The notes under the pieces were generated by a model. The model was not told the DNA's origin and made no database searches. It saw only the letters and a program-made list of their open reading frames with translations. The translations under genes were made by a program, and so were the position numbers. Below, in pieces: positions 548-23,050 of a DNA stretch of 64,000 nucleotides. Location: contig NZ_AP012322.1 in assembly GCF_001025155.1 (NCBI RefSeq), positions 1,922,001 through 1,986,000 of the forward strand, given 5' to 3'. This DNA comes from Bifidobacterium angulatum DSM 20098 = JCM 7096 (lineage in GTDB: Bacteria; Actinomycetota; Actinomycetes; Actinomycetales; Bifidobacteriaceae). Each line of letters begins with the position of its first letter. The first letter of the stretch is position 1.

Positions 548-722
548 TGTCCGATTCGGGAGAAACGGACAACCGGAACCCTCATGCAGTACCCCTACTT
601 GTCTAATTCGGGAGAAACGGACACACACAGCGAAAATCTACGCCGGATGTCATATTCACCAGAATCGGACAAGTAAGGCATCAATACAGCACCGCGGATG
701 ACCGATTCGGGGGAATCGGACA
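548..722. repeat. Phased palindromic repeat array 1 (4 units)
   Basis: Four 24-bp imperfect palindromes sit at 548-571, 600-623, 648-671 and 699-722. Their arms resemble TGTCCGATTC and GAATCGGACA around a variable 4-base centre. Start-to-start distances are 52, 48 and 51 bp, and the intervening sequences are unrelated. The array fills the space between htpX and the 3' end of the reductase gene. The last copy is the least degenerate. The rest of 392-790 shows no gene. Confidence 0.85.
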
Positions 723-790
723 TCCGCGGTCTGGGAAGTGCCACTATCGGCAACTCGGTCGCCGCTCAGACGACAAGCCGCAGCCGCACG

Positions 791-2236
791 TCACGCGTGT
801 GCGAGTTCGCGCATCTGATCCGGCTCGATGACCTTCTTGTGCTCGCGCCCTTCCTTCGCTCCCTCGGCACGCTCGTATGCGTCGACCTTCTTCCAACCGG
901 CAAAGTCGATCGGCTTGACGCCGCGCTCGGCCAGCAGCCTGTCGATGGATTTGGGATCGCGATCCTCGGCCACGCGACCGCCCTCGGCGGCCTTGGCGAG
1001 ATCTTCAAGCATGTTGGTCACAATGGCGAGCGCATCGGACTTGGTGGAACCGATCAGGCCGACCGGTCCGCGCTTGGCCCAACCGGTGGCGTACAGGCGT
1101 TCGCGCACTTCGCCGCCGTCTGCTTCGGTGGTGATGCGGCCGTCTTCGTTCGCGTTGGCGAGGTGGGCGTGTTTCTCGTCGTAGGCGATGCCGGGCGCGG
1201 TGGCCGGCTTGTATCCGATGGCATGGTACACGGCTTCGACCGGGTAATCCACGAATTCGCCGGTGCGGGTCATCTTGCCATCGGCGCTGGTCTCGGTCTT
1301 TTCCACGCGGATTGCCTTGACTTTGCCGTCTTCGCCCAGCACTTCGGTCGGTGCGGAGTTGAAGTGCACGTAGTATTTACGATCGGCGGGGTTGCCTTCG
1401 TAGTCGACGTCGCCGTCGTCTTCCATGTCTTCGGCCATCTCGCGAATTGCGAACAGTTCTTCGACCATTTGACGGGTCAGCTTGTTCTGGCCGGCAACTT
1501 CGATGGTTTCGTCGTCCAGATCGAAGTCGTCCTCGTTGATGATGAGCTGCACGCCCGGCAGCTTTTCCATCTCGCGTAGTTCCTGCACGCTGAACTTGGC
1601 TTGGGCCACGCCGCGGCGGATGAACAGGTGGAGCGTCTTGGCCTTGTTGGCTTTGATGCCTTCGTACACGTTGTCGGGAATGTCGGTTTTGGCTTTGAGG
1701 TCGTCCGCGTTGCGCATGAGTTCGCGGGCCACGTCCATGGCCACGTTGCCACCGCCGATCACGGCCACGTTTTCGGCGTCGAGCGGCCATTCGCGAGCGC
1801 CCGTGGGGTATCCGTCGTACCATTCGACGAATTTGGCGGCACCGTATACGCCGTCAAGGTCGGCACCAGGCAGGCCGAGCGGCTTGTCTTCTACGGCTCC
1901 GGTGGCGAACAGCACGGCGTCGTAGCGGGCGAGCAATTCGTCCAGGGTGACGTCCTTGCCAAATTCCACGTCGCAGTACAGGTGGATGTCGGGGTTGTCG
2001 AGCGTTTTTTCGAGCGCATCGGCGATGAATTTGATGGATGGGTGATCGGGGGCCACGCCGTAGCGCACCAGGCCGAACGGGACCGGCAGCTTTTCGAACA
2101 GGTCGATGCGGGCCTTGGTGCCCAGGCCGAGTTCGTCGCCGAGTTTCTTGAGTTGGCGGAGGAAGATGTCAGAGGAGTAGACGCCTGCGGGGCCGGCGCC
2201 GATTACAGCAATACGAAGTTCGTTAGTCTCAGTCAC
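791..2236 (-). CDS. fprA: FprA-type ferredoxin/flavodoxin-NADP+ reductase
   Basis: The 481-residue protein belongs to the adrenodoxin reductase-like family of FAD- and NADP-binding flavoproteins, which pass electrons between NADPH and ferredoxin or flavodoxin in the cytoplasm. The FAD dinucleotide motif GAGPAG is at residues 13-18 and the NADP-binding GGGNVA motif at 161-166. The C-terminal block ATGWAKRGPVGLIGSTKSDA (around 385-405) is the usual FAD-closing segment. Length fits the family. It is transcribed alone, with unrelated neighbours and about 245 empty bases upstream. The physiological partner cannot be inferred from the window. Confidence 0.9.
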   Translation of the reverse strand: MTETNELRIAVIGAGPAGVYSSDIFLRQLKKLGDELGLGTKARIDLFEKLPVPFGLVRYGVAPDHPSIKFIADALEKTLDNPDIHLYCDVEFGKDVTLDELLARYDAVLFATGAVEDKPLGLPGADLDGVYGAAKFVEWYDGYPTGAREWPLDAENVAVIGGGNVAMDVARELMRNADDLKAKTDIPDNVYEGIKANKAKTLHLFIRRGVAQAKFSVQELREMEKLPGVQLIINEDDFDLDDETIEVAGQNKLTRQMVEELFAIREMAEDMEDDGDVDYEGNPADRKYYVHFNSAPTEVLGEDGKVKAIRVEKTETSADGKMTRTGEFVDYPVEAVYHAIGYKPATAPGIAYDEKHAHLANANEDGRITTEADGGEVRERLYATGWAKRGPVGLIGSTKSDALAIVTNMLEDLAKAAEGGRVAEDRDPKSIDRLLAERGVKPIDFAGWKKVDAYERAEGAKEGREHKKVIEPDQMRELAHA

Positions 2237-2484
2237 GCGCTCTAGCCTAACGCAAACCGTCGAAACGTAAAAGGGTCATTTTGGCGGGGAATGACCGCTT
2301 GTGGGGTTCTGCGGGGTGGGTTTGCCGAGGGTGGCGATAGGGGCGTTATTCTCCGAGTGACCGATGAGTGCAGGTGCCGCGGGTTACCGGACGTGGCCAA
2401 ACACGGGCGAGACTCGGATATCGGCACATCTGGCGGACATGAGGGGAAACTCAGGAGATACACAGCGGGATCAACCGCACTCCC

Positions 2485-4227
2485 CTATCTGAGCCGTAGA
2501 CCGCGCAGCATATCCGTACGCACGTAGGCGGTGATATCGCCAGGAGTGACCCACGTTTTCCATGGCGTGCGTTTGGTGGCGATGGTGATTTTGCGATAAT
2601 CGCGCGTGCGGTACCTGAGCCGGCCAAAATAATAATCCGGAAAATCGGTGTCGCCGATCACGAATTCCGGCTCCCCCTTGGCCGCGCAAGCCGCAATTTC
2701 CCGGTTCATTTGCGCTGCGGACGGCACCTGATTCGGCTCGTAGGAGCGACCGCGGTAGGTGCAGTCCAGCAGACCGTGCGATCTGTGCGGGAAATACGGG
2801 TTGGCTGCGATCATCGCCCAACTGTAGCGATGCGTGTCTTCCTGCCGGGGAGTATGACTGCCGTCCGGCCATGTGGTTTCGGGGAAATACCGCCAGAACG
2901 ATACCCAGCGATCATGGTCGAGCCTGTTGCGCTCGACGAACGATGCCACGGCGCGCGCGCCCGAATAGTCGTACCGCATATCGCAGGCTGTGGCGGCAAC
3001 GTTCCAGCATAGGCTCGGCAGCAGCAGCACGGCGATTACGGTATTGCGCATGGCGGAGGCTCGACGCTGCAAGCCGTCATGTCGCTTGAGCAGACCGGCG
3101 ATGTAAAGGCGCGACCGTTCCGGCATGTCGACGGCGTCGAGCGGACGGTCACGCAGCATGATCCACCAGTCTGCAACGAACAGTGCGAAGATGATTCCCA
3201 GGTGGTGCAGGCTGAAATACCGCACCGCGCATACGGCGAACAACAGGTATGGCACCAGCACAATATCGAGATCACCTCGCCTGTGCGCAAGACGAACCAG
3301 CACGGCCCACACCAGCGCCGACAGCACCACACACACTATGAGCGGGAAAACACCCAGTCGCATACCATGCAGGGACACGTCGCCGGCGAATGCGGTGAAC
3401 AGACTTTCCGATGGCAGCACGAGCCAGAACATCAGGAATTTCGCCATGCCCGAATTGCCGTTCGCCCCCGGCGTGGCGCCAAACGTGTCAGGATATGGCA
3501 GAATGCACGCGGTCAGCACGATACCGGCGGCCATCAGCGCCAGCCATGTGGCAAAACGATGCAAGTCGGCGACCAATGCGCGTAGGGATCTCGCCTGCAG
3601 CACCGCGCGTATGACCCAAACCATCGCCATCGCGCAGGCCAGCGCAATACCGTAGCTGCTGGTGCAGCACAGCAGCAGCAAGACGAATACCAGCCTCCAC
3701 GGATGCCGGTCACGGTCTTTCCAACAATCGGCCGCCATGAACAGCGCGGCGCACATCAACGCGTACTGGCGCGACGTGACACCATATTGGAAGCACATGA
3801 AATACGTGAACGGCAGCAACGCCACGGCCACCGGCGGGAACGGCGAACGGAATATCAGCAATCCCGCCATCAGCGCGGCGCACGCCAATTGCACGCCCTT
3901 CAAACCGATCTCATAGGGCACGCCAAGCTTGGCGGGAACGGACAGCATAAGCCACCACAACGGTGGATGCCCCTCGTAATGCGGGCGCACCAGCAGCATG
4001 TCACGGAACGACGCATCACGGGCGATAAGCCATGATTGCGCCTCATCGAACCACGGCTCATGGAACGCCATCACGCACGCCACCACCGCAATATACGCCA
4101 CGAACACGGCGATACGCCAGTGGCAACGCATCACACGCGGCACAGGTCGCAACCGCCCCGCCACACACTTTTGAGATTCGCCTGCCACAGGCTCCCCCAC
4201 AATCCCGCTCGTCACTCCAGCTCCCAT
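2485..4227 (-). CDS. Polytopic membrane protein, probable GT-C glycosyltransferase
   Basis: This 580-residue protein has roughly ten hydrophobic segments and an early extracellular-loop motif FHEPWFDEAQSW (acidic residues near 61-62) followed by EGHPPLWW. That arrangement is typical of GT-C (PMT/ArnT-like) enzymes, which move sugars from polyprenyl-phosphate carriers on the outer face of the membrane. The ATG at 4227 is preferred to one 60 bases upstream because GAGGGG lies six bases before it. The substrate is unknown, and the family call rests on topology and this motif only. Confidence 0.55.
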   Translation of the reverse strand: MGAGVTSGIVGEPVAGESQKCVAGRLRPVPRVMRCHWRIAVFVAYIAVVACVMAFHEPWFDEAQSWLIARDASFRDMLLVRPHYEGHPPLWWLMLSVPAKLGVPYEIGLKGVQLACAALMAGLLIFRSPFPPVAVALLPFTYFMCFQYGVTSRQYALMCAALFMAADCWKDRDRHPWRLVFVLLLLCCTSSYGIALACAMAMVWVIRAVLQARSLRALVADLHRFATWLALMAAGIVLTACILPYPDTFGATPGANGNSGMAKFLMFWLVLPSESLFTAFAGDVSLHGMRLGVFPLIVCVVLSALVWAVLVRLAHRRGDLDIVLVPYLLFAVCAVRYFSLHHLGIIFALFVADWWIMLRDRPLDAVDMPERSRLYIAGLLKRHDGLQRRASAMRNTVIAVLLLPSLCWNVAATACDMRYDYSGARAVASFVERNRLDHDRWVSFWRYFPETTWPDGSHTPRQEDTHRYSWAMIAANPYFPHRSHGLLDCTYRGRSYEPNQVPSAAQMNREIAACAAKGEPEFVIGDTDFPDYYFGRLRYRTRDYRKITIATKRTPWKTWVTPGDITAYVRTDMLRGLRLR

Positions 4228-4562
4228 GTCATGCCCCTCACACCATAGTTGTCCCGAAGTCTTCTCTGCATACCAGTAAGCACACAATACGCAGGCATGT
4301 CAAACGCAAACGTGTTGCCATAGTGCCCCAACCGCCACTCGGCGACGTCAGTCAGCAACAGGAACCGGCGCATCACAGCGTTCAATCCTCCACCGTAATC
4401 ACACTGGTTGCGCATCATCCTTATAATGAGCCTGCTATTGCCATGATGGAACGTTTGACGGCACACCACTGCTTCTTCCGCGCACAACAGCACTATGGAA
4501 CAACGCCGAAGCAACACAAGGCAGCACAGCGAAACACAGAGAAAAGAGAAAAGAGAACAATA

Positions 4563-6041
4563 GTGAGCGACACAACACCGCATAACGCGGTCAAGCAAGA
4601 CAAAAGCGACTCCGGGTATTCCAAGGATCTGAAGCCGCGCCACATTCAGATGATCGCCATCGGCGGTTCCATCGGCACCGGCCTGTTCCTCGGAGCGGGC
4701 GGCCGACTGGCGCAAGGTGGCGCAGGACTGGCGATCGCCTACGCGGTATGCGGCATCTTCGCATTCCTCATGGTCCGCGCGCTGGGCGAACTGGCGATCC
4801 GCCGCCCCTCCTCCGGCGCATTCGTCTCCTACGCCCGCGAATTCCTGGGCGAAAAAGGCGCGTACATCACCGGCTGGCTGTTCTTCCTGGACTGGTCCGT
4901 TACCGTGATGGCCGACATCACCGCCGTGGCCGTGTACTTCCACTACTGGCAGGCCTTCCAGAATGTGCCGCAATGGCTGCTGGCCCTGTGCGCACTGGCC
5001 GTCGTGTTCGTGCTCAACATGCTGAGCGTGAAAATGTTCGGCGAAGCCGAATTCTGGTTCGCCGCCATCAAAGTGGCCACCATCATCGCATTCATGCTGA
5101 TCGCCATCTGGGCCATCGTCACCGGCGCCCCGGTCGGCTCATCGCACGCCGGCATCGCCAATATCACCGAACATGGCGGTCTCTTCCCGCAAGGCATCCC
5201 CACCGTATTCGCATTGACGCTCGGCGTGGTGTTCGCCTTCGGCGGCACCGAAATGGTCGGCGTGGCAGCCGGCGAGGCCAAGGACGCCGCCAAGGTATTG
5301 CCCAAGGCCATCAACTCGATGATCATCCGCATCTTCGTGTTCTACGTAGGCTCCGTGGTGCTCATGGCTCTCGTCCTGCCATACAACGCCTACTCCTCCA
5401 ACGAATCCCCGTTCGTCACCTTCTTCTCCGGCATCGGCATTCCGCACGCCGGCGACGTGATCCAGGTGGTCGTGCTCACCGCCGCGCTTTCGTCCCTGAA
5501 CGCCGGCCTGTACTCCACCGGGCGCACGCTGCGCTCGCTCGCCATCGCCGGTTCCGGCCCGAAGTTCGCCGCCCGTATGAACAAGCATCATGTGCCGTAT
5601 GGCGGCATTATCATCACGTCCGCTCTGGGCCTGATCGGCGTGGTGATGAACGCCGTGCTGCCTTCCGACGCGTTTGAGATCGTGATGAATCTGGCCGGTA
5701 TCGGCATCGCCGGAACGTGGGCCGCCATTCTGGTCACGCACCTGGCGTTCCTCAGGAAGGTCAAGGCCGGCAAGGAGACCCGACCCGCATACCGTATGCC
5801 GGGCGCCCCGTACACGAATTACATTTCCCTGGTGTTCTTCGCCGTGGTGGTGCTGTCGAATCTGACGAGTGCAGCAGGCCGTTGGACACTGGCCATGTTC
5901 GCCGTGGTCGTTATAGCCATGGTCGCCGGCTGGTTCTACGTGCGCGGCCGCATCGACGGCAATCTGATGGACGGGATGCTGGACGACAACGGCAACGACG
6001 TGCCTGACGTGCTGGAAACCACGGAAACCGCCGGCAAGTAA
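4563..6041 (+). CDS. ansP: L-asparagine permease (amino acid-polyamine-organocation family)
   Basis: The 492-residue protein has about 12 membrane segments. The first helix contains IGTGLFLGAGGRL, the family signature that contacts the substrate backbone and is characteristic of asparagine/GABA-type APC permeases. It ends in a short acidic cytoplasmic tail. The open frame continues far upstream, but homology-like sequence begins at the GTG at 4563 (VSDTTPHN), preceded by a purine-rich stretch without a strong Shine-Dalgarno site. The asparaginase gene follows 200 bp downstream on the same strand, which supports asparagine as the imported substrate. Confidence 0.8.
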   Translation: MSDTTPHNAVKQDKSDSGYSKDLKPRHIQMIAIGGSIGTGLFLGAGGRLAQGGAGLAIAYAVCGIFAFLMVRALGELAIRRPSSGAFVSYAREFLGEKGAYITGWLFFLDWSVTVMADITAVAVYFHYWQAFQNVPQWLLALCALAVVFVLNMLSVKMFGEAEFWFAAIKVATIIAFMLIAIWAIVTGAPVGSSHAGIANITEHGGLFPQGIPTVFALTLGVVFAFGGTEMVGVAAGEAKDAAKVLPKAINSMIIRIFVFYVGSVVLMALVLPYNAYSSNESPFVTFFSGIGIPHAGDVIQVVVLTAALSSLNAGLYSTGRTLRSLAIAGSGPKFAARMNKHHVPYGGIIITSALGLIGVVMNAVLPSDAFEIVMNLAGIGIAGTWAAILVTHLAFLRKVKAGKETRPAYRMPGAPYTNYISLVFFAVVVLSNLTSAAGRWTLAMFAVVVIAMVAGWFYVRGRIDGNLMDGMLDDNGNDVPDVLETTETAGK

Positions 6042-6079
6042 ACGGCAGGTACGATTCGCGTATCCGAATCGGCGGTACA

Positions 6080-6113
6080 GTGGACGGCGAAGGCGTAACG
6101 GCCCGCCGTCCAC
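6080..6113 (+). terminator. Hairpin after the asparagine permease
   Basis: A perfect 10-bp inverted repeat (GTGGACGGCG / CGCCGTCCAC) with a 14-base loop lies 39 bases after the permease stop. It has only a weak T-rich tail, so it may attenuate rather than fully stop transcription before the asparaginase gene. Confidence 0.55.
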
Positions 6114-6243
6114 TTGCGTTTCGTGGGTATTCGGCATGATTCGCCGCGTTTCGGTACGATTCATTACGGATTGCGCATGATTCGGCCGCAATCGGACGAT
6201 TGGACGGCGGCATGATTTCGCCAAGACTTCGAGGAGGTAGACC

Positions 6244-7254
6244 TTGCGTATTCACATCACGTACACCGGCGGCACCATCGGCATGATCGATTCGCCCAAC
6301 GGCTTGATTCCTGGCGCGGACATGCGCGGCTGGCTGCTTCGCCTGCTCGAGGACGCGCATATGGACAGCGACCTGTTCTCGTTCACCGAGCTTGATCCGC
6401 TGATCGATTCGTCGAATGCCACGCCAAGCAACTGGCAGACCATGATCGACGATCTCAAGGCGCACCGCGACGAGGCCGACGCATTCGTGGTGCTGCACGG
6501 CACCGACACGATGAGCTATTCGAGTGCCGCGCTCTCCTACGCGCTCACCGATTTCGGCAAGCCGATCATCTTCACCGGCTCCCAGCACCCGCTGGGCAAA
6601 ATCGAATCGGATGCCACCGCCAACGTGACCGGCGCGCTGAACGCCGCGATGAGCGAGCGCATGAACGGTGTCGGACTGTTCTTCGGCCATCACCTGTTCG
6701 CGGGCAACCGTGTGAGCAAGTCGTCGAGTTGGGCGTTCGAGGGGTTCTCCGCACCGTCGACCGGCCCGCTGGCCCGTACCGGAACGCCGTGGCACTGGTA
6801 TGCCGGCGGCACGCTGGCTGGCGAAGGGTGGAAGGATCCCAAGCCGTATACGCGGCATGATGTGGCCGTGATCGACATGGCACCGGGCATTACCGCCGCA
6901 CGTCTCGAGGCGATGCTCACGCCACGCCCGGAGGCTGCGATTCTGCGCGCATATGGCGTAGGCGATATTCCAAGCGACGAGCCGGGACTGACGGATGTGA
7001 TCGCCGATGCGCTGCACGACGGTGTGCCGGTGATCATCGCCTCGCAATGCCAGCAGGCGGAGGTGTTGCTGGGACATTACGAGGTGAGCGACGCCATCGC
7101 GCGTGCCGGTGCGATCGGTTCGGGCGATATGACGCTTGAGGCAGCGTATGCGAAGGTGATGTTCCTGCTCTCGCAGGGCGTGGATGCGGCTGATTTCGGC
7201 ACGTGGATGACGCGCTCCATCGCCGGTGAGATTTCGCCGGCCTCCACGCTGTAA
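6244..7254 (+). CDS. ansA: Type I (cytoplasmic-like) L-asparaginase
   Basis: The 336-residue enzyme hydrolyses L-asparagine to aspartate and ammonia. Both catalytic triad/threonine motifs are visible: TGGTIGM at residues 8-14 and HGTDTM at 85-90. No signal peptide is present, which suggests a cytoplasmic enzyme working on asparagine delivered by the preceding permease. The start is a TTG, chosen because a strong GAGGAGG lies seven bases upstream and the family begins just before TGGTIG. It is probably expressed with, or partly independently of, the permease. Confidence 0.9.
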   Translation: MRIHITYTGGTIGMIDSPNGLIPGADMRGWLLRLLEDAHMDSDLFSFTELDPLIDSSNATPSNWQTMIDDLKAHRDEADAFVVLHGTDTMSYSSAALSYALTDFGKPIIFTGSQHPLGKIESDATANVTGALNAAMSERMNGVGLFFGHHLFAGNRVSKSSSWAFEGFSAPSTGPLARTGTPWHWYAGGTLAGEGWKDPKPYTRHDVAVIDMAPGITAARLEAMLTPRPEAAILRAYGVGDIPSDEPGLTDVIADALHDGVPVIIASQCQQAEVLLGHYEVSDAIARAGAIGSGDMTLEAAYAKVMFLLSQGVDAADFGTWMTRSIAGEISPASTL

Positions 7255-9909: not shown

Positions 9910-11787
9910 TTACCACAGGCTGAACGGGAAGCCGTTGCTGTAGCCGTCGGAACCGTTGCCGGAACCATCGGAACCGTTGCCGGAGTCGCCCTGGCCGTTC
10001 TGGTCGCCCTGGCCGTTCTGGTCGCCCTGGCCGTTCTGGTTCTGCTCCTGCTGGCTGTTCGATTCGGTGCGGTTGGAACCGTTGACCTTATCCTCCTGCT
10101 GGTCGAGCGTCACGTCCACATCCATGGTCTTGCCGTCACGCACGATGGTGAGCGTCGCCTTGTCGCCAAGGGCCGTAGCGCGCACGAAGCCGAGCAGGGA
10201 GGCCGTACTGTTGACCGCATGGCCGTCGAACGCCACGATGGTGTCGCCGGACTTCAGGCCGGCCTTGTCTGCCGGGCCGCCCTTGACTACGGCATTGCCG
10301 GTGGAGCTGGATGTGATGCGAGCGCCGGCGCGGGTCACGCCGTCGGCTTCGACGGTATCGGTTTTCACGGTGACGCCGAGTGCCACATGCTTGACGGAAC
10401 CGTCCTTGACGATTTCGTCGGCCACACGCTTGACGAGGTTCGACGGAATGGCGAAGCCGATGCCGATGGAGCCGGAAGAGCTGGAGTCGGAGGATCCAGA
10501 GGAGCCTGCGGTGGCGATGGACGAGTTGATGCCGATTACTTCACCGGCCGCGTTGAAGGTCGGGCCGCCGGAGTTGCCGGGGTTGACGGCCGCGTCGATC
10601 TGTACGGCGTTGGTGACGATGTTGTTGTTGTCATCATCCATCACGGTGACCGGGCGGTTCAGCGCGGAGACGATACCGGTGGTGGCGGTGTCGTCGTAGC
10701 CCAGCGGGTTGCCGACCGCCATCACGTTCTCGCCTACGGCGAGCTTGTCGGAATCAGCGAATTTCACGGCCTTCAGGTCGCTCGGCGGGTTTTCGAGCTT
10801 GATGACCGCAAGATCGGTGGTGGTGTCGGTGCCCACGACCTTGGCGGAGTACATCTGGCCGTTGCTTAGCGTGACGAGGATCTTCTGCGCGCCGGAGATC
10901 ACGTGGTTGTTGGTGACGATGTCTCCATCGGTGTTGATGATCGCGCCGGACCCCTTGGCCACGCCGTTGCTCAGCGTGGCCTGGATGGCCACCACGGAGC
11001 CGGAGACCTGCTTGGCCACGGCCTGCCAGTCGGGTGCTTCGCCGGACTTGGCGGTGGCGGAGCCCGAACCGGATTCGCTGGAGTTGATGTTCGCCATGGA
11101 ACTGGTGGTGGGGACCTTCACCGCGCCGCTGGTGATTGCTGCGTAGCCGACGCCGAGGCACAATGCCGCGGACAGCGCTGCCGCGATGACCGCGGTGAGC
11201 ACGGTGGTTGTGGTGCCTTTGCTGTTCTTGCTGCTGCCGGGCATTGCGGGCTGGCCGTTCTGGCCTGGCATATTCGGCTGGTCGCCTTGACCGCCTTGAC
11301 CGTTCTGCGGGGGAACGGGAGCGCCGAACATGCCGAAACGCTGCGTGGGCTGGCCGTTCTGATTCTGCCGTGCGCCGAAGGGGGTGCGCATGATGAACGG
11401 ATTGCCGTTGTTCTGGGCCGGCTGGGGATTCTGCTGCTGGATCGGCTGCGTGGGCTGAGCCTGCACGGGCTGGGTCGGTTGAGTCGGAACCGGGCCGTAG
11501 GCGCCGTATTCGGGAGCCGGGCGATACTGACCGTAGGCCGGAGTCGCCTGGGTCTGCGGAGCCTGCGGCTCGGATGCGGACGGCGCTGCGGCATCGCCTG
11601 CCGGCGCGGTTGCGAAATTCGTAGTCGGTGCAGCGTCGGCGGACGGCGCATCCGCTACCGGCGCGATCGGCTCGGTCTGTGCATCCTCAGCCTGCGTATT
11701 CTCAGCCTGCGTAGTCGCCGCGGATTCGATATGCTGCGTGGCCTGCGGATCATCCTGGATGTTCGGGGAGTTCTGCTCTTCAGCCAT
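9910..11787 (-). CDS. degP: HtrA/DegP-type membrane-anchored serine protease with PDZ domain
   Basis: The 625-residue protein has a long Pro/Gln/Ala-rich cytoplasmic region, one membrane helix (about residues 192-215) and an extracytoplasmic trypsin-like domain. The triad appears as TNNHVI (His), DLAVIKL (Asp) and GNSGGP (Ser). A PDZ domain follows. The C-terminus is low complexity, with three exact 18-bp repeats at 9985-10038 encoding a QNGQGD repeat. HtrA proteases clear misfolded exported proteins; in Actinobacteria such anchored forms act at the cell envelope. The number of C-terminal repeats is likely to vary between strains. Confidence 0.9.
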   Translation of the reverse strand: MAEEQNSPNIQDDPQATQHIESAATTQAENTQAEDAQTEPIAPVADAPSADAAPTTNFATAPAGDAAAPSASEPQAPQTQATPAYGQYRPAPEYGAYGPVPTQPTQPVQAQPTQPIQQQNPQPAQNNGNPFIMRTPFGARQNQNGQPTQRFGMFGAPVPPQNGQGGQGDQPNMPGQNGQPAMPGSSKNSKGTTTTVLTAVIAAALSAALCLGVGYAAITSGAVKVPTTSSMANINSSESGSGSATAKSGEAPDWQAVAKQVSGSVVAIQATLSNGVAKGSGAIINTDGDIVTNNHVISGAQKILVTLSNGQMYSAKVVGTDTTTDLAVIKLENPPSDLKAVKFADSDKLAVGENVMAVGNPLGYDDTATTGIVSALNRPVTVMDDDNNNIVTNAVQIDAAVNPGNSGGPTFNAAGEVIGINSSIATAGSSGSSDSSSSGSIGIGFAIPSNLVKRVADEIVKDGSVKHVALGVTVKTDTVEADGVTRAGARITSSSTGNAVVKGGPADKAGLKSGDTIVAFDGHAVNSTASLLGFVRATALGDKATLTIVRDGKTMDVDVTLDQQEDKVNGSNRTESNSQQEQNQNGQGDQNGQGDQNGQGDSGNGSDGSGNGSDGYSNGFPFSLW

Positions 11788-12125: not shown

Positions 12126-13427
12126 ATGACTGATCTTGTGGAACACCCCCTGGGCGCGGAACCCGGCAAACCCGGCGACCGCAGCGCATTCTCCTTCGAA
12201 ACCATCACCCGCCTGCCCGACGCGGCAGACGGCAAAGGACGCGGTGGCGCACGCTATGGGCGCACCGGCATCATCCACACCCCGCACGGCGACATCCGCA
12301 CACCCGCCTTCGTGCCGGTCGGCACCCAGGCCGCCATGAAAGCCGTCCTGCCCGAACAAATGCGTGATCTTGGCGCGCAATGCCTGCTCGCCAACGCGTT
12401 CCACCTGTTCGAGCGGCCCGGCGAAGACGTGCTCGACGCCGCCGGCGGACTGGCGAAATTCATGAACTGGAACGGCCCCACCTTCACCGATTCAGGCGGC
12501 TTCCAAGTGATGTCGCTGGGCGTGGGCTTCAAGAAAACGCTCGCCATGGACGTGACCGGCATGAAATCCGACGAAGTGATCGCCAAAGGCAAGGAACGCA
12601 TGGCCTGGGTGGACGAGGACGGCGTAACGTTCAAATCCCCGCTCAACGGCGACCAGCATCGCTTCTCCGCCGAAATCTCCATGGGCATCCAGCACAAGCT
12701 CGGCGCGGACATCATGTTCGCCTTCGACGAACTCACCACGCTGATGAACACGCGCGGTTACCAGGAACAGTCCGTGGAACGCACCTACCGTTGGGCCCAG
12801 CGCTGCGTGGCCGAGCACAAGCGACTCACCGAAGAACGCCTCGGCAAGCCATACCAGGCGCTCTACGGCGTGGTGCAGGGCGCGAACTACGAGGATCTGC
12901 GCCGGCATGCGGCCGCACAGATCGCCTCGCTGGACTTCGACGGCGTGGGCATCGGCGGCGCGATCGAAAAACGCATCATCGGCGACACCTGCGCGTGGAT
13001 CTGCGACGAAATGCCGGAAAACCGGCCGCGTCACGTACTCGGCATCGCAGCGGTGGACGACATCTTCGCCTGCGTGGAGAACGGCGGCGACACCTTCGAC
13101 TGCGTGGCCCCGGCACGCTGCGGGCGTAACGGCGCGATCTTCACACGTCACGGGCGCTACAACATCAAGCGCGCGCAGTTCAAGTTCGACTTCGGGCCGC
13201 TTGAGGAGGGTTGCGACTGCTACACCTGCACGCACTACACGCGCGCCCACGTGACACATCTGCTGCGCGCCCGCGAATTCAACGGATTCACGCTGGCGAC
13301 GATCCACAACGAACGATTCTTCGTGAAGCTGCTCGACGACATCCGCGCCTCGATCGACGGCGGCTACTTCGAGGAATTCCGCGACGAGACGCTCGCGAAG
13401 TTCTACGAGAACGGTTCGAAGGGCTGA
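12126..13427 (+). CDS. tgt: tRNA-guanine transglycosylase
   Basis: The 433-residue enzyme exchanges guanine-34 of GUN-anticodon tRNAs for a queuosine precursor or queuine. The active-site block FTDSGGFQVMSLG lies near residues 119-131. The second catalytic region lies within the TIM barrel, and the zinc site is in the cysteine-rich stretch CDCYTCTHY near residues 361-369, followed by the HL..R and TIHN segments. Length is slightly above the family norm because of a 30-residue N-terminal extension. No queuosine synthesis genes are nearby, so the cell may salvage the base; this is inference. Confidence 0.93.
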   Translation: MTDLVEHPLGAEPGKPGDRSAFSFETITRLPDAADGKGRGGARYGRTGIIHTPHGDIRTPAFVPVGTQAAMKAVLPEQMRDLGAQCLLANAFHLFERPGEDVLDAAGGLAKFMNWNGPTFTDSGGFQVMSLGVGFKKTLAMDVTGMKSDEVIAKGKERMAWVDEDGVTFKSPLNGDQHRFSAEISMGIQHKLGADIMFAFDELTTLMNTRGYQEQSVERTYRWAQRCVAEHKRLTEERLGKPYQALYGVVQGANYEDLRRHAAAQIASLDFDGVGIGGAIEKRIIGDTCAWICDEMPENRPRHVLGIAAVDDIFACVENGGDTFDCVAPARCGRNGAIFTRHGRYNIKRAQFKFDFGPLEEGCDCYTCTHYTRAHVTHLLRAREFNGFTLATIHNERFFVKLLDDIRASIDGGYFEEFRDETLAKFYENGSKG

Positions 13428-13892: not shown

Positions 13893-14070
13893 TGTCCGAT
13901 TCGGGAGAAAAAGACAAACACACACCCTCAACACAACCCCACATGTCCGAATCTGCAGAAACAGACACGCAGGGTGCGTCTTAGTGAGTTTGCGTGTCCG
14001 AATCACCAGAAACGGACGCATGGGGGTACAGATTTAGGGTTACACATATCCGAATCCGGAGAAACGGATA
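13893..14070. repeat. Phased palindromic repeat array 2 (4 units)
   Basis: Four 24-bp units of the same family as array 1 sit at 13893-13916, 13944-13967, 13995-14018 and 14047-14070. Start-to-start distances are 51, 51 and 52 bp. The right arms are more degenerate (for example GAAACGGACA) than the left. The units lie between the tRNA-Leu terminator and the hsp20 gene. Spacers are 27-28 bp and unrelated to one another. The rest of 13838-14330 has no gene. Confidence 0.88.
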
Positions 14071-14986: not shown

Positions 14987-15112
14987 TGTCCGATTCGGGA
15001 GAAATAGACATCCAAGCGCACTTCCCTATCCCCTGGATGACCGATTCACCAGAAACGGACATCCTGGCATATGCTTTCCTCTCCTGCATGACCGATTCGG
15101 GAGAATCGGACA
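14987..15112. repeat. Phased palindromic repeat array 3 (3 units)
   Basis: Three units of the 24-bp palindrome family sit at 14987-15010, 15038-15061 and 15089-15112, exactly 51 bp apart. The second and third carry TGACCGATTC as the left arm. They lie between the hsp20 terminator and the convergent EamA gene. Confidence 0.88.
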
Positions 15113-15150
15113 CTCGGAGGGTGAAAACCTGAAGAGCACGATCCCCGGCG

Positions 15151-15201
15151 CCAACCCAGAGATCCCGCCAACCCAGAGATCCCGCCAACCCAGAGATCCC
15201 G
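15151..15201. repeat. Three exact 17-bp tandem repeats
   Basis: The unit CCAACCCAGAGATCCCG occurs at 15151-15167, 15168-15184 and 15185-15201 without a mismatch, followed by two degenerate GCAACCCG pieces. The block is 51 bp in total, the same length as the period of the adjacent array. Confidence 0.95.
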
Positions 15202-15237
15202 GCAACCCGGCAACCCGACAAGCACGGCAGCCCGCAC

Positions 15238-16351: not shown

Positions 16352-16383
16352 GGCGCACGCCGGAAATCCTCCCGGCGTGCGCC
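16352..16383 (-). terminator. Terminator of the large surface-protein gene
   Basis: Perfect 12-bp arms GGCGCACGCCGG and CCGGCGTGCGCC with an eight-base loop lie 43 bases beyond the minus-strand stop at 16426, with a T-rich tail in that direction. Confidence 0.8.
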
Positions 16384-16425
16384 CGAAACACGCGCTCGCA
16401 AACCTTTCGGCGCTAAAACGCTGCG

Positions 16426-19023
16426 TCAGTCACGGCGACGCAGCTTCAGCATTACGCCAGCCGCAAGTACCAGTACTGCAGCGGCAAACGCCACACCAAA
16501 TACGGCGGAACCGGTGTTGGCAGTAGTGCCGTCGGTCTTGCCGGCGCTGGTCTTGTCTGCCTTGTCGGCCGCCGGCTTGCTTGGCGCTGCCGGGCTCGGC
16601 GACGGCTGTGGCGTGGATGGCGTGCCGTCTGTAATCGTCACCGTGAACTTCACGCGTGCACCACGGTTGAAGAAGACGGTCACAGAGCCTGTGCTTCCGG
16701 TCTTTTGCGCATTGAGGAACGTGCTGGTCAGGCTGATGCCGGATCCATCCGCGTTCACAACGTAATCCTTGCCTGCGGTGAGCGACGCGTAGTCATATTG
16801 CACATCGCTTACGGTGTTGCCGTTGAAGTTGATGCCGACGTTCAGACCGGCGCTATTCTGCCGCTTGGATGCAGCATCGTACTTATCGTAGGTGAACGCA
16901 TTGCCGGCGCTCAGCGTGGCGCTAGTCACCGTCGTACCGTCGTTCAGGTTCCAGATCTGCGTGCCGTGGTACGGATTGGCGGTGCCGACGCTCAACCCGG
17001 AATCGGTCACAGCAAAGACGCGCAGACCATGGTTGTTGTTATCGCCGAAACCGTTACGGGTGATGGTCTGGAAGTTCACGCCGTCAGCGGTGACGACCAG
17101 GTCGCAGCCGCGCTTGTCGGACGTTGCGGAACGCAGGTATTTGCACACGTTCACGAAGTAGCCGAAGTTGTCGACGTTCTCCTGGTTGAGCCATTTGTCA
17201 AGCTCGCTGGTGACGGAATCCGGCAGCATGGGCTTGATGGACTCGTAGATCTTGAGCAGTTCCTCAAGCATGGTCTGGAATCGGATGCGGTCTTCGAGCG
17301 TATAGCTGTCTGCGGAGAGCGTGGCGATGCCATCGGCATTCGCGTCGGTCTGTTTGGCGTTCAGATCCTCCTGCATGGAGCCCATCAGGGATTCCATCCG
17401 CTCCAGCTTGGCGATCTCGCCATTGGAGGCATCGGATTCGGCGCTTTGCGTGGCGATGCCGGCCTTGGCATCCGCAGAGGCGTTCGCGGATGAGGAACCG
17501 TCGCCCTTGATCTCCTCAAGGAACTTCTTGATGTATTCGATCTGCTTCTTCCACTGCTCCGGAGTGCGGTGGAGGATGTCGCCGTTGGCGAATTGGGTCA
17601 CAGGGTAGGACAGGTCGCTGATGTCGAAGGTGCCGGCATACATCTTGCCGTCATACGACTGCATACGCCATACGTACTGGTTGAGGTGGCGGCTCGTATC
17701 GCTTTCCGCGGCAAGACCGGCTCGCATGGTCTCACCGTCGATGGTTCCGATCGGATTGCCGAAGTACTTATTGTTATCTTCGCCTGCCACGAGTTCGAAG
17801 TTCTCGTCCGCATCCATACGCCACAGGTTGACCGGGTTGGCCATGTCGTTGTACAGGTTTTCGAACTTGCCTTTGAGCGCATCCGGCAAAGCCACCATCG
17901 GATCGTTATACCCTCCGATATACAGATGGTTCTTATACACCACCAGATTGGCCGCACCGGAACGGGTGGCACCAAAACCATAGTCGTAGCGGGCGCCGTC
18001 CTTCGGGCTGCCTACCAGCGGCGTGTACTTCCAGCTGCCGTCGTTGGTCTGCTCGCCGCGGAACAGCGCGAACGACTGCTTGGTGCCCGCGCGGCCGGTG
18101 ACAACGGAGATGTACAGTTTTCCATTGAATACGGTCATGTCCCAGATCGCACCGCCGAAGATGTTATCGGCGTAGCTACATGCCGGATAGTCGAGCAGAT
18201 CCTTCTGCGTGGCGATCACCTTGAACGAATCCTTGCCTTGGGAAGGATCCGAGGAGGCTACGATGTAAGCCCCGTCATCACCGATCATGCTGGCGACAAG
18301 CTGGTTGCCCAACACCGCAAGACCGCGAATGCCGACCGAGTAGCCCTTCTTCTGGGCTGCCGGAGACAGTGGCGAGGACTGGTAGACGATCTTGGTCGCG
18401 TCGGTTGCCGGATCGACCTCCAACAGGTACGGTTTGCCGGTGGCGGCCGCGGAGAAATACAGCTTGTCGTGGAATTCGATGGCCGCACGATACCCGTTCA
18501 CATTGATGTCGTCGCCCAAGGATTTCTGCACCGGCATGGCCACGATCTTGACTTCGCCGGTAGCGGTGTTGATCTTCAGCAGCAAACTGCGATTCTCGCC
18601 GTTGTCGAGGAACAGTTCACCATTGAACGCCACATCAAGTGCTGCCTTGAGTTTGCTGTAGGTGGTGCCCATCTTGCTGGCCATCAGTTTAAGCGTACTG
18701 CCCATGGCCGAATAGCACGTGCCCACATACATCCAGTCACCATAGCCAACGGACGCCCACGAATAATTCTGGCCACGATCCGCATCCGCGTCGGCGGCGG
18801 TAGGCGTGCCGTTGGCGTCCACGTTGACGATGCCGTCGTTCTCGCCAAGACCGGCGTTCGGATGCGAGATCTTCGTAGCGGTATAACCGGCGCCCTGCTT
18901 AACGCTTAGCCCCGGAGCCTGCGCGGCCGATGCAACCCCAGCCGGAAGAAGCATCGAGCATGCAGCAACCAATGCGACCGCTGCCGTCGCAATGCTATGG
19001 TGATGTGTTTTCGCCGATTGCAT
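16426..19023 (-). CDS. Large secreted surface protein with X2-like domain and sortase-like tail
   Basis: The 865-residue protein begins with a signal peptide (hydrophobic core around residues 12-33). Its central region has repeated Y/W-G-x-L-Y-hydrophobic strands suggesting a beta-propeller-like fold. A coiled, Ala/Asp-rich insert lies near 510-600, and a segment resembling the CBM_X2 immunoglobulin-like module near 715-795. It ends with a Pro/Ser/Lys linker, TANTG, a hydrophobic helix and LRRRD. The tail is built like a sortase signal, but with TANTG in place of LPxTG; class E sortases prefer LAxTG and such an enzyme is encoded at 32948-34054. Function is unknown, probably cell-surface binding. 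Confidence 0.7.
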   Translation of the reverse strand: MQSAKTHHHSIATAAVALVAACSMLLPAGVASAAQAPGLSVKQGAGYTATKISHPNAGLGENDGIVNVDANGTPTAADADADRGQNYSWASVGYGDWMYVGTCYSAMGSTLKLMASKMGTTYSKLKAALDVAFNGELFLDNGENRSLLLKINTATGEVKIVAMPVQKSLGDDINVNGYRAAIEFHDKLYFSAAATGKPYLLEVDPATDATKIVYQSSPLSPAAQKKGYSVGIRGLAVLGNQLVASMIGDDGAYIVASSDPSQGKDSFKVIATQKDLLDYPACSYADNIFGGAIWDMTVFNGKLYISVVTGRAGTKQSFALFRGEQTNDGSWKYTPLVGSPKDGARYDYGFGATRSGAANLVVYKNHLYIGGYNDPMVALPDALKGKFENLYNDMANPVNLWRMDADENFELVAGEDNNKYFGNPIGTIDGETMRAGLAAESDTSRHLNQYVWRMQSYDGKMYAGTFDISDLSYPVTQFANGDILHRTPEQWKKQIEYIKKFLEEIKGDGSSSANASADAKAGIATQSAESDASNGEIAKLERMESLMGSMQEDLNAKQTDANADGIATLSADSYTLEDRIRFQTMLEELLKIYESIKPMLPDSVTSELDKWLNQENVDNFGYFVNVCKYLRSATSDKRGCDLVVTADGVNFQTITRNGFGDNNNHGLRVFAVTDSGLSVGTANPYHGTQIWNLNDGTTVTSATLSAGNAFTYDKYDAASKRQNSAGLNVGINFNGNTVSDVQYDYASLTAGKDYVVNADGSGISLTSTFLNAQKTGSTGSVTVFFNRGARVKFTVTITDGTPSTPQPSPSPAAPSKPAADKADKTSAGKTDGTTANTGSAVFGVAFAAAVLVLAAGVMLKLRRRD

Positions 19024-19228
19024 AAGATTCCCTTCTCTTCGTGCTCAGACGAACGATACAAGCGATACAAAACACCTGCGATAGAGGGGTATACCCCCTA
19101 TTTAGCCATCCACTGTATGCAAGGCGCGCGACGTGCAGATTACCTGCGTCGATCGTGCTGCCGCATGCCAGGTCCCAACCTCACCACCATGCCCTATCAC
19201 AGGCCCGCCGAGACTGCCCCAATCCCTG

Positions 19229-20290
19229 CTACAGGCTTGGCGCCGGAGTATCGAAAAAATCAAGAATCCGCTCAACGTAAGGTCCGAGTATCGCGTTCGG
19301 CATGGAGAAGATCTCATGAAGCGAATCGTCGTACCGGACTTTTTCGATCGGGCTTCCACCCGCGCGCACACGCTCGACGAACCTGTCCTGCGGCTCGTTG
19401 AGCACCCACACGTCACGCCCGGATTGAAACAGCAGGATCGGCGTTTCGATACTGCCGCACGCATTTGGCGCAAGTATGGCACGACTGAGCTTCAACGCCT
19501 GACGCACCCACTGGAATGCGGGCTTATAGGTCTGGTACGCCACATTGTTGCACCGCAACCGGTGGAAATAGCGTTCACGCGGCTCGCTGGCACCCGGGTT
19601 TTCATCAAGATCAAGAGGCGCGGACGGATCGAAATCCTTCTTGCCGAATACAGGCCTGCGCCCCAACCCCAAGCCGCATAGCGCACCGACCAGCGGCCGG
19701 GCCAGCCACAGCGGCATGCCGGTCTGCGGGGCGATCATCGGCGAAGAAAGCACCGCCTTGTCGAACAAAGCGGGATGCTGTTCGAGCACCGCAGCGCCGA
19801 TGCCGCCGCCCATCGAATGGCAGTACAGGTACAGCGGCTGGCCGTTCGCGTATTCCTGCCCCACGGTTTCGGCGAATCCCGCAAGATCGGCCGCATACCT
19901 ACGCCAATCGTCGATCCACACGTTGCACCGGTCATCCGTGTCGCGCGCGGAGGCGCCATGCCCACGATGATCGATCGCACACACCGAATACCCGGCGAGC
20001 AGGAAATACCAGACCATTTCATCGTATTTTTCGGCGAACTCGGTGAACCCGTGGCTCAACACGATGCAACCGCGGAATCCGGCGGAAGCGCCCTGATTGT
20101 TTTCCGCGTCGAACTTTGCGGCATCATAGGCGAGATAGTGCAAGGTCCCACCCAACGGCCTGATCCCCGCGCCGCGTTCAGCAGGCGAGGGATCGAAACG
20201 CCCTTCGGTCAGACATGCCTTAAGCGCCGGCTTGACGGTATTCGCCATGGTTTCGGCGTAATCGTTCTCCTTGAGCAGGGTCACTTCCAT
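19229..20290 (-). CDS. Alpha/beta hydrolase, monoacylglycerol lipase/lysophospholipase type
   Basis: The 353-residue protein has the serine hydrolase fold of the PldB/Hydrolase_4 family: oxyanion-hole motif LSHGFTEFAEKYDEM (about 78-92), DHRGHGAS, nucleophile elbow CHSMGGG (Ser near 160), a late Asp in LLFQSGRD and a His in DDSLHEIF. These enzymes cleave acyl esters of glycerol or lysophospholipids. No signal peptide is seen. A Cys replaces the more usual Gly at the first position of the elbow, which is tolerated in the family. The gene is 117 bp from the S9 peptidase gene on the same strand. Confidence 0.85.
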   Translation of the reverse strand: MEVTLLKENDYAETMANTVKPALKACLTEGRFDPSPAERGAGIRPLGGTLHYLAYDAAKFDAENNQGASAGFRGCIVLSHGFTEFAEKYDEMVWYFLLAGYSVCAIDHRGHGASARDTDDRCNVWIDDWRRYAADLAGFAETVGQEYANGQPLYLYCHSMGGGIGAAVLEQHPALFDKAVLSSPMIAPQTGMPLWLARPLVGALCGLGLGRRPVFGKKDFDPSAPLDLDENPGASEPRERYFHRLRCNNVAYQTYKPAFQWVRQALKLSRAILAPNACGSIETPILLFQSGRDVWVLNEPQDRFVERVRAGGSPIEKVRYDDSLHEIFSMPNAILGPYVERILDFFDTPAPSL

Positions 20291-20407
20291 AATCGTCTCC
20301 CATCAGTCGCAGGCCGACTCGCACTCAGCCAGCAGGCCGGCCTGCAATCCGGTTCACCAGTCCGATTCATAAACCAGCCCACAGCCAGCCCGCAGCCATT
20401 CGGCGAG

Positions 20408-23050
20408 TCAGTCAGCGAGCGCCTTGCGTAGAAAATCGCGTTGCAGCAACAGCAGGTTCTCCGCCACGGTTTCGTCGTTGGTCATATGCGTGATGCCGGT
20501 GAGCGGCAGGAACGTGTGCTCACGACCGGCCGCCATCAGCGCCTGACTCAACCGCAGGCTGTGTGCGATGGTGACGTTGTCGTCCGCAAAACCGTGGATA
20601 AGCATGAGCGGGCGGGTGAGGCGCGGCGCGTCGGCGATGATGGAGTTGCGTTCGTAGACGACCGGATCGAGCCCCAGGTAGCGTTCCGTGTAGTGGGTAT
20701 CGTACAGAGTCCAGTCGGTAGGCGGGGCGCCGGCGCAGGCGGCATGGAACACGTTGGGCGCGTCGAGGACCGCGAGCGCGGAGAGGAATCCGCCGAAGCT
20801 CCAGCCGATAATCGCCACCTTGTCAAGGTCGGGCTTGGGGCCGTTCTCCCAATCCAGCTGCGGCAGCGCCTTCACCGCTTCGATCTGGTCGGCGAGCGAG
20901 ACGCCCTTCATATCCTCGAACATCTCACGATCCCACTTGGGGCCTCGACCGGTGGTGCCGCGACCGTCCGCAGTCAATACGATATAGCCTTGATCGGCCC
21001 ACCATTGCGCGTCCCAGTAGAAGGATGAACGGAACACGACCTGCTGGAAGCCGGGGCCGCCATACGGTTTGACCAGAACGGGCAGGGTGGCTGCATGCGC
21101 GTAGGGGCTGGCTTCGCTTGGCATGGTGATGGCGGCAAGCAGATGATGCTCGCCGGGCAGGGTGGCGAAGCTGGTGTTGGGGAGGAACCCTGGGTCGGCG
21201 GCGTTGCTGGTGATCACTGCCGCCACATCCCGAGTGTCCGATTCGGCCGAATCGGTCATCCATACCTGTTCTGCACCCGTCTGGATGTCCGATTCTCCAG
21301 AATCGGTCATGCGTGCTGAATCGGAGGCGCCACTGGTGTCCGATTCGGCCGAATCGGTCATCTGAGCAACATTGGATGGCGTAGGGATGTCCTTTTCGGG
21401 AGAATCGGACATCTGGGAGTCTTGGGGGGATGTCTGGATGTCCGATTCTCCAGAATCGGACATTTGGACTGCGGGCAGGTGCGCCACGTGGATCATGGTG
21501 GTCGCATTCGTGCCCATCATGCCGCCGCTGACCACTTCGCCGCGCATGCCGCGTGACGCGGTCCATACGCCGGGCTCTCCCACCAGGGGTTGCACGTTGC
21601 CGTTGTAGTCGATGCTGACCACATCATGGCATCGGGCGTCATGCAGTTCCGCGGTCTCCTGCCATGCTTCCGGCACGTCGGGCGCGAGCTCCGGATCACG
21701 CTGCACCACGCACAGCACGTCGCCATCGGTCACATCCAGCACGCTGCGCACGTTCCATCCGACCGGGGTGAAGGCTTTGCCGTCCACGGTCAGTCGATTC
21801 GTGTTCGCTTCCATGTCGTTCAGCGCGCATACGAGTCGCCCGTCGTCGGTGAGTGCGGGCAGTCCGTCGACGATGTCGATCCACTGGCCGTTCGCATGTT
21901 CTTCCAGCAGGTAGGTTGCGCCGTTGTCGTCTACGGCAAGTACCTGATCGTGGTTCTGGCGCCTGTTTTGCACGAGCAGCAGCGGGCAGCGGTTCTTCTG
22001 CCATACCACGCGCGCCACGTACTCGTAGGCTTCGCAGTCCCATTCGATTTCGTGGAATGCAACGATGGAGTGACGGCCCTGATCGTCGAAGTCGAGTCGC
22101 AGCAGGTCGAGGTGTACGTCGGCGTTGGCGGTCAGTGCACGCGGGTAGCGGCGTCCGGATGCTGGATTGCCTGGGTTGGCGGGGTCGCTGATGTACCACA
22201 TCGGTTCGGGCGCAGTGTCGAAGGATTCGACGATGATCTGGCGCGAATCCGGCCCCCACCAGAAGCCGTCGTATCGGTCCATTTCCTCTCCGGCTACGAA
22301 TTCGGCGAGTCCGACTTTCCAGGTGTTGGCGACTTCGTGCGTGCCGGTTTGCGCACCCTGGTTGTCCGATTCGGCCGAATCGGACAATACGGTATCGTCG
22401 TTGTCATCGTCATCGTCCGCTTCGACGCTGGCGGTCAGCAGGGTGACGTTGCCGTCGGCTTCGCCGTTGTCGGCATCCTTCCATTCGCGGATGCTTACCA
22501 GTTGCAGTCGTTCGCCGGTGGTGTAGAGCACGTGCTCGCCGTCTGGGCTGATGCGTGGGTTGAGCACGGGTGCGGTGCCGGCTTCGACGCTCAAACGTCC
22601 GGCGCACAGTTCGCGCACCGAGGCTTTGCCGTCGCCCGCATTGTCTGCGCTATCCGCGCTACATACATTGCCCAGTTCAGCCAGGAACAGGCGGCCGTTC
22701 AGCGTGAACACCACGCGTGAACCCGTCTCGTCCACCGAATAGCTGACGATGCCGGAGCCGCCTTCACGCGCACGCTCCCTACGGGCGCGTTCCTCGGCTG
22801 GCACGTTCTCACTGTCCGCGTTGGAGCCCAGCAGCACACGCGGGTCGGCGATCAGCGTCTCGTGATGCTGACCCGCATCGTCAAACCAGCTCATCCATAG
22901 GCTGGTTACGGTGTCTTCCGGCCCATCCGAACGGAGGAACAGGGCGCGCGTACCGTCGCCTATCGCCTGCGCGGAACGCGGGGCGCCGCAGGTGAAACGC
23001 AAGGTGCGGGCCTTCAAACGGGGGTATTCGTCAATCGCTTGCTCATTCAT
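20408..23050 (-). CDS. S9-family (prolyl oligopeptidase-like) serine peptidase with in-frame repeat insert
   Basis: The 880-residue cytosolic peptidase has an N-terminal beta-propeller (about 1-560) and a C-terminal alpha/beta hydrolase. KPYGGPGF and the nucleophile elbow GWSFGG are visible, with the late Asp in HGFADDNV and the His in GITHMTN. The ATG at 23050 is favoured over one 99 bases upstream because AAGGTGG precedes it and the family begins near there. Five units of 17 residues, each starting M(S/T)DS(G/A/P)E(S/K)D, are inserted between propeller and hydrolase, plus one SDSAESD in the propeller. They are encoded by the 51-bp palindrome repeats seen in the intergenic arrays. The catalytic regions look intact. 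Confidence 0.85.
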   Translation of the reverse strand: MNEQAIDEYPRLKARTLRFTCGAPRSAQAIGDGTRALFLRSDGPEDTVTSLWMSWFDDAGQHHETLIADPRVLLGSNADSENVPAEERARRERAREGGSGIVSYSVDETGSRVVFTLNGRLFLAELGNVCSADSADNAGDGKASVRELCAGRLSVEAGTAPVLNPRISPDGEHVLYTTGERLQLVSIREWKDADNGEADGNVTLLTASVEADDDDDNDDTVLSDSAESDNQGAQTGTHEVANTWKVGLAEFVAGEEMDRYDGFWWGPDSRQIIVESFDTAPEPMWYISDPANPGNPASGRRYPRALTANADVHLDLLRLDFDDQGRHSIVAFHEIEWDCEAYEYVARVVWQKNRCPLLLVQNRRQNHDQVLAVDDNGATYLLEEHANGQWIDIVDGLPALTDDGRLVCALNDMEANTNRLTVDGKAFTPVGWNVRSVLDVTDGDVLCVVQRDPELAPDVPEAWQETAELHDARCHDVVSIDYNGNVQPLVGEPGVWTASRGMRGEVVSGGMMGTNATTMIHVAHLPAVQMSDSGESDIQTSPQDSQMSDSPEKDIPTPSNVAQMTDSAESDTSGASDSARMTDSGESDIQTGAEQVWMTDSAESDTRDVAAVITSNAADPGFLPNTSFATLPGEHHLLAAITMPSEASPYAHAATLPVLVKPYGGPGFQQVVFRSSFYWDAQWWADQGYIVLTADGRGTTGRGPKWDREMFEDMKGVSLADQIEAVKALPQLDWENGPKPDLDKVAIIGWSFGGFLSALAVLDAPNVFHAACAGAPPTDWTLYDTHYTERYLGLDPVVYERNSIIADAPRLTRPLMLIHGFADDNVTIAHSLRLSQALMAAGREHTFLPLTGITHMTNDETVAENLLLLQRDFLRKALAD
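21235..21462. repeat. Phased palindromic repeat array 4, inside the S9 peptidase gene (5 units)
   Basis: Five 24-bp palindromes sit at 21235-21258, 21286-21309, 21337-21360, 21388-21411 and 21439-21462, every one exactly 51 bp (17 codons) apart. On the coding (minus) strand they encode M-S/T-D-S-x-E-S/K-D. Centres are GGCC, TCCA or GGGA. The spacers encode unrelated residues. Confidence 0.95.
22363..22386. repeat. Isolated perfect 24-bp palindrome of the same family
   Basis: TGTCCGATTCGG joined directly to CCGAATCGGACA is a perfect palindrome, in the frame of the peptidase gene and encoding SDSAESD. It is 1,128 bp from the first unit of array 4, which keeps the reading frame. Confidence 0.9.

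Follow-up and report, generated by a model that had tools for sequence, protein, structure and literature searches.

Known repeats and the family described here

REP/REPIN sequences, which come with the RAYT transposase, are small dispersed palindromes that are often clustered. Here, we analyzed a 24-bp palindrome that occurs in phased arrays in a 64,000-nt stretch of Bifidobacterium angulatum DSM 20098 = JCM 7096 (NZ_AP012322.1:1,922,001-1,986,000, hereafter the window). STAR elements of Staphylococcus, together with the STAR-like false-CRISPRs (CRISPR, clustered regularly interspaced short palindromic repeats), are described in the accessible parts of PMC3532100 and PMC5294841 as short repeats at least 40 bp apart at many loci, which expand and contract, carry locus-specific spacers and have been mistaken for CRISPR. 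The STAR element is presented there as a 14-bp GC-rich direct repeat, intergenic, with the consensus T(G/A/T)TGTTG(G/T)GGCCC(C/A). Rickettsia palindromic elements, of 105-146 bp, were reported to lie between genes and also to be fused in frame in unrelated genes (PMC2229807, accessible part).

An earlier note on the window had stated that no family with this layout was described, yet the repeat is already in print. Table 1 of PMC4521832 lists TGTCCGATTCTCCAGAATCGGACA (24 bp, 8 repeats) from B. dentium LMG 11045 and ATGTCCGATTCTGCAGAATCGGACA (25 bp, 16 repeats) from B. ruminantium LMG 21811, each as an 'Undetermined' CRISPR with cas1 given as 'N'; both are the same repeat as the angulatum family, filed there as CRISPR. 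The accessible part of that paper does not speak of how the repeat is dispersed or phased, of copies in genes or of mobility, and searches of open-licence papers turned up no named Bifidobacterium palindrome family. According to the available part of the B. dentium genome paper, only two CRISPR loci, with cas genes, were described (PMC2788695), and the corresponding part of a B. breve promoter paper holds nothing relevant to the repeat (PMC5746004).

A phased repeat that recurs and turns over

With moderate confidence, we read the family as a small, lineage-restricted mobile palindromic repeat, in which the units would be DNA-level sites of a putative protein and the outer half-sites would be the ends. 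Arrays recur as blocks, change by 51-bp steps, keep their outer half-sites better than their inner ones, have a constrained centre, and are restricted to one clade and one chromosome arm.

Sixteen matches to TGTCCGATTCNNNNGAATCGGACA with at most three mismatches were found in the window, all within 548-22386 (0.01 expected from 100 dinucleotide shuffles), and a 17th copy with four mismatches is located at 14047-14070. These are the 17 copies, grouped 4 + 4 + 3 + 5 + 1, that the earlier note had counted; its intervals of exactly 51 bp number nine of 12 rather than eight of 11, the other three being 52, 48 and 52 bp as it had given them, and the shared arms that it described belong to a real palindrome family in which many copies have one imperfect arm. 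The whole B. angulatum genome contains 44 copies at up to three mismatches. At a looser cut (up to four mismatches, five if phased), the stretches of this genome that were examined hold 47 copies, arranged as 12 arrays and four single copies, some within genes, and 28 of their 31 intervals are exactly 51 bp. When the stretches of nine genomes were pooled, the same held for 162 of 180 intervals, with the remainder at 48-52 bp, so that phasing withstood the test of whether spacing in other genomes is random. The period also persists outside genes, as had been claimed: 68 of 80 intergenic and 42 of 43 genic intervals measure exactly 51 bp, these and all other coding/intergenic splits resting on our own rough hexamer gene caller.

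As for a miniature inverted-repeat transposable element, the element recurs at new places between unrelated flanks in three genomes. In B. moukalabense, the stretches L071:2825-2899 and 3980-4054 are identical at 75 of 75 positions, spacer included, in inverted orientation and 1.15 kb apart, and their likeness stops 5-7 bp outside (one mismatch allowed). Two arrays of genome G027, at 12266 and 18163, agree at 70 of 75 positions over a distance of 5.9 kb, with likeness for 4-5 bp beyond, and in B. pongonis (L087) a two-unit part is common to two places 1.35 kb apart (73/75). Since the recurrence takes place 1-6 kb away between unrelated flanks and includes the spacer, arrays seem to be copied locally. 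A spacer pair common to G040 and B. ruminantium was tried as a further full copy and not counted, because its flanks are shifted homologues.

Unit number differed in 42 of 120 orthologous array pairs from eight genomes, a comparison made on same-strand pairs only, which leaves out most B. angulatum arrays. The array inside the S9 peptidase gene has five units in B. angulatum and three in B. merycicum, and a second B. angulatum array has two where B. merycicum has three, the flanks of both being 98.75-99.75% identical between the two genomes; likewise, G014 carries three units where G018 carries two. Among 30 aligned loci of the S9 peptidase linker, B. angulatum shows five units, L173 and L174 three each, L175 a remnant, and the other 26 none. 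Duplicated stretches inside the arrays of L080, L065 and L074 show how arrays lengthen. The 'decayed mobile repeat' proposed in the earlier note is thus best supported in its mobile part, but the family is not only decayed, given the 42 pairs that differ and the arrays at new nearby places.

In the mechanism that we propose, the unit would be a 24-bp site, TG[T/A]CCGATTC-NSSN-GAA[T/A]CGGACA, read as DNA by a putative dimeric protein. Units would amplify in tandem at the constant 51-bp period, for which unequal recombination between them is the simplest route, and copying of arrays or parts of them to places 1-6 kb away may build up a cluster on one side of the origin; if so, no function of the location would be needed to account for the clustering. 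The outermost half-sites would stay perfect as ends of the moving unit, and the frame bias in genes presumably arises because only the SDSxESD frame is tolerated, as a disordered linker.

Structure of units and spacers

The pooled counts below were taken without loci L048 and L060 (single matches in other bacteria), arrays near locus ends and duplicate contexts. The central dinucleotide of 338 copies is GG in 132, CC in 116, GC in 84, CG in one and something else in five, so that GG, CC or GC occupies 332. Terminal inverted repeats, as in a miniature inverted-repeat transposable element, are present, as the outermost half-sites are inverted and perfect in 152 of 196 cases, compared with 158 of 360 for inner half-sites. 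Within terminal units the inner half is worse than the outer in 95, better in 22 and equal in 79 (16, 2 and 6 in B. angulatum alone), and in arrays of at least three units the mean number of mismatches rises inward from 0.22 in the outer half-site to 0.58 and then to 0.8-1.1; P-values from the pooled data overstate this rule, since orthologous arrays are not independent. Among 78 orthologous pairs with equal unit number, arms diverged by 4.4%, flanks by 8.1% (coding) and 13.0% (intergenic), spacers by 25.2% and 21.4%, and the two central bases by 22.4% and 19.4%, respectively.

Symmetric substitutions within palindromes are depleted (10 seen versus 24.4 +- 4.5 expected over all units, and 3 versus 13.1 +- 3.0 in internal units) and stand at chance in single copies (4 versus 4.0). 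This shortage of symmetric changes speaks against base pairing as what maintains the dyad. Variants common to the two half-sites flanking one spacer were not above chance (19 seen, 22.8 expected). The ~27-bp spacers, which the earlier note had called unrelated, turned out to have a consensus of 7.6 bits over 278 oriented 27-nt spacers from 219 groups, compared with 1.2 bits in shuffled controls, a figure inflated by the orthologous spacers included; its elements are an A-rich centre and, 3-4 bp beyond each arm, pyrimidine-purine steps. Inverted symmetry of whole arrays is striking in some arrays of G027 and B. moukalabense and was discarded as a general property, being not significant overall.

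Gene context, distribution and chromosomal position

The 135 groups of eight genomes comprise 57 that are genic and 78 that are intergenic. All but one of the coding groups (56/57) use a single frame that gives SDSxESD-like peptides, and the five-unit array in the S9 peptidase encodes M[ST]DSxE[SK]D every 17 residues. The 76 intergenic groups with called neighbours on both sides are found in +- (26), ++ (21), -+ (19) and -- (10) settings. Hosts and neighbours are unrelated, including S9 peptidase, CrcB, chloride channel, adenylosuccinate synthetase, Hsp20, ApbE and aldo-keto reductase, among others.

At least one match with up to two mismatches is present in 26 of 112 genomes of the genus, and 13 of the 112 are array-rich (at least 13 forward matches). 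In a sample of 394 genomes of the class, B. angulatum included, in which no separate search of the family's other genera was made, three other genomes have one isolated two-mismatch site each. Scanning a species-genome collection for the exact unit returned 52 stretches, with the Bifidobacterium names erythrocebi, moukalabense, catenulatum subsp. kashiwanohense, ruminantium, pongonis, merycicum and sp. N4G05, and outside the genus one match each in two other bacterial metagenome-assembled genomes. The exact unit was found in no viral contig, and the five-unit array had no match in plasmids or phages, single 27-nt spacers not having been searched.

The copies gather near the origin. In B. angulatum, 41 of 44 are located at 1.750-1.944 Mb of 2.02 Mb; G027 has 68 of 74 copies 10-391 kb from dnaA, G018 has 28 of 30 at 32-250 kb and G019 has 32 of 34 at 44-290 kb, always on one side of dnaA. 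DnaA is encoded at the contig start in B. angulatum (G000), G001, G014, G019, G027, G040 and G060, and G018 shares the open reading frame layout. Relative to the origin, the segment with the arrays is on the left in B. angulatum and on the right in relatives (G019), which suggests an inversion about the origin. G014 possesses only five copies, at 118024-121235 (L154), in a purA-chloride channel-crcB-sucrose phosphorylase stretch, the flanks of which are 91-99% identical between G014 and G018, a pattern that resembles exchange of the stretch between species.

Candidate movers and binders

RAYT was rejected as the mover, since the Y1 transposase is absent from B. angulatum and from nine of the 13 array-rich genomes. 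No transposase was seen among the neighbour proteins scanned, and no search for insertion sequences with matching ends was made. A TetR gene beside one B. angulatum array was considered as the cognate binder and discarded: 99 of the 112 genomes carry it, many more than the 13 that are array-rich, and its surroundings contain no copy of the repeat in G045 or G059 and a single, very weak one in G029. This gene is found twice with equal score in G059 (C1:23397-24059 and 212382-213044), a genome listed with 8% contamination.

A small helix-turn-helix protein of 153 amino acids (L216:10106-10567), PF20310-like just under the Pfam cut-off and with a coiled-coil-like C-terminal end, has matches at E < 1e-40 in 11 of the 13 array-rich genomes (not G001 and G029; in G069 over residues 1-86 only) and in one of the 99 others (G100, which is without arrays). 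This co-occurrence is confounded by kinship, so the candidate binder is no more than a lead. Several genomes encode more than one member of this protein family, G055 having 22 matches.

Weighing the explanations

Several results weigh against a mobile repeat. Only three recurrences are clear; a fourth pair (L057) is weaker, with 70 of 75 positions identical and no likeness outside, and part of the recurrence could instead reflect conversion between arrays already in place. Most spacers are not near-copies of any other. Neither a target duplication nor a clean empty site could be demonstrated, as no empty site was close enough, and Y1 genes of the REP/RAYT type occur in seven of 112 genomes, only four of them among the 13 array-rich and none in B. 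angulatum. The outer-inner rule was not significant in G001, G019, G040 or G045 each taken alone, and outer halves of arrays are closer to perfect than single copies are (compared on 161 groups in one analysis and on 219 groups, 162 of them oriented, in another). Furthermore, 14 intergenic orthologous spacers show zero length changes, where 7.4 were expected from the flank indel-to-substitution ratio or only 2.1 from the site count; this no more than suggests a spacer-length constraint, and a purely selfish repeat does not obviously need kept spacing. A 3-base target duplication deduced from extrapolated gaps was abandoned because it did not survive the requirement that matches extend to the junction.

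The main rival is a cooperative DNA-binding array, in which a putative protein of the lineage would sit on phased palindromes along one DNA face and organize or mark the origin-proximal arm, for which matS, SlmA and Noc sites serve as models of a chromosome-organizing array. We hold this to be possible, although not probable. It would be served by the phasing kept outside genes, by arms that diverge more slowly than the 8-13% of flanks, by a centre in which CG appears once, by the pyrimidine-purine steps and A-rich middle of the spacers, and by the clustering at the origin side; cooperative binding would also tolerate weaker inner half-sites. However, almost every copy is found to one side of the origin, turnover of unit number is rapid, arrays recur as blocks, G014 manages with five copies, and the adjoining TetR gene is widespread and lacks a good copy near it in three genomes. 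The proposal, made in the earlier note, is therefore retained for its spacing, arms and centre and ranked below the mobile repeat. Both can hold if the binder itself is a recombinase. Along this line, the units might be sites of a Bifidobacterium DNA-binding or recombinase system, with one dimer per palindrome (SS centre, TG...CA ends), dimers interacting across about five helical turns, a complex marking, shaping or rearranging one origin-proximal arm, and sites copied locally, a scheme that we regard as rather doubtful.

Perfect units can fold as hairpins and arrays in genes are presumably transcribed, so each unit might act as a 10-bp hairpin in transcripts; the depletion of compensatory changes argues against such an RNA-level element, intergenic arrays occur in convergent, divergent and both tandem settings, and no Rfam match above the gathering score covers the arrays, which makes it very unlikely. 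A sub-threshold match to an Rfam miRNA family (E 0.26) overlies part of the five-unit array. Selection for SDSxESD peptides every 17 residues would fit the single frame of the coding groups, but frequent variants alter the Asp codon (SVS and SFS forms), the host proteins are unrelated, and the 78 intergenic groups contradict a protein-level repeat unless those arrays prove coding; we find this hardly credible. Least of all do we believe in an orphan CRISPR array, as the 'Undetermined' entries with repeats of 24 and 25 bp (Table 1, PMC4521832) would have it. Half-sites vary between units, spacers have a common consensus, one genome holds 12 arrays plus four single copies, many groups sit inside genes, and the five-unit array had no match in plasmids or phages nor the exact unit in viral contigs, single 27-nt spacers not having been searched; no cas gene was seen among the neighbour proteins scanned, the whole genome not having been searched for cas. 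Of the three possibilities raised in the earlier note, the mobile repeat is favoured, cooperative binding is kept and an RNA-level role is disfavoured.

Features of the window

The arrays of the window and their host gene are collected in Table 1. The array at 548-722 is apparently absent from the aligned place in B. merycicum (G045), where the flanks are 87 and 92% identical. Directly adjoining the array at 14987-15112 is a 17-bp tandem repeat in three near-identical copies (15149-15208). Elsewhere, an 18-bp unit is repeated three times with no mismatch inside a called gene (9985-10040), and a 49-bp and a 73-bp direct repeat pair (92% and 96% identical, ~1.43 kb apart) are located at 49000-49122 and 50435-50553, the 73-mer containing an inverted GC-rich stretch that is terminator-like.

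Table 1. Repeat arrays and host gene in the window (positions count from the first nucleotide of the stretch).
Feature	Position	Strand	Details	Context
Array, 4 units	548..722	.	Units at 548, 600, 648, 699; intervals 52, 48, 51	Intergenic by own gene calls
Array, 4 units	13893..14070	.	Units at 13893, 13944, 13995, 14047; intervals 51, 51, 52	Between tRNA gene and Hsp20 gene
Array, 3 units	14987..15112	.	Intervals 51 + 51	Between Hsp20 gene and EamA-type transporter gene
Array, 5 units	21235..21462	.	Four intervals, all 51	In frame inside S9 peptidase gene
Single perfect unit	22363..22386	.	Encodes LSDSAESD	Inside S9 peptidase gene
S9 family peptidase gene	20408..23149	-	Host of 5-unit array (hypervariable linker) and single unit	

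Comparison with known systems

A repeat filed as CRISPR in two species thus behaves as a phased palindrome family that would move locally, changes in steps of 51 bp and, where it enters genes, does so in one tolerated frame. With it one can study how small repeats spread when no transposase is in evidence and what keeps their ends perfect; it also provides a variable marker with which to type bifidobacteria and, if the binding explanation is true, a handle on origin-side chromosome organization in array-bearing bifidobacteria.

REP/REPIN sequences differ in their Y1 transposase, which B. angulatum and most array-rich genomes lack. With STAR elements, as portrayed in the accessible parts of the papers cited above, the repeat has in common that it is dispersed, expands and passes for a false CRISPR, whereas here the unit is a 24-bp palindrome of other sequence, at a fixed 51-bp period, with 57 of 135 groups in genes. 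With Rickettsia palindromic elements it shares in-frame insertion, but phased arrays are not described for those elements in the accessible part of PMC2229807. On these descriptions, the bifidobacterial repeat works most like STAR and Rickettsia palindromic elements and is a member of neither by sequence or layout.

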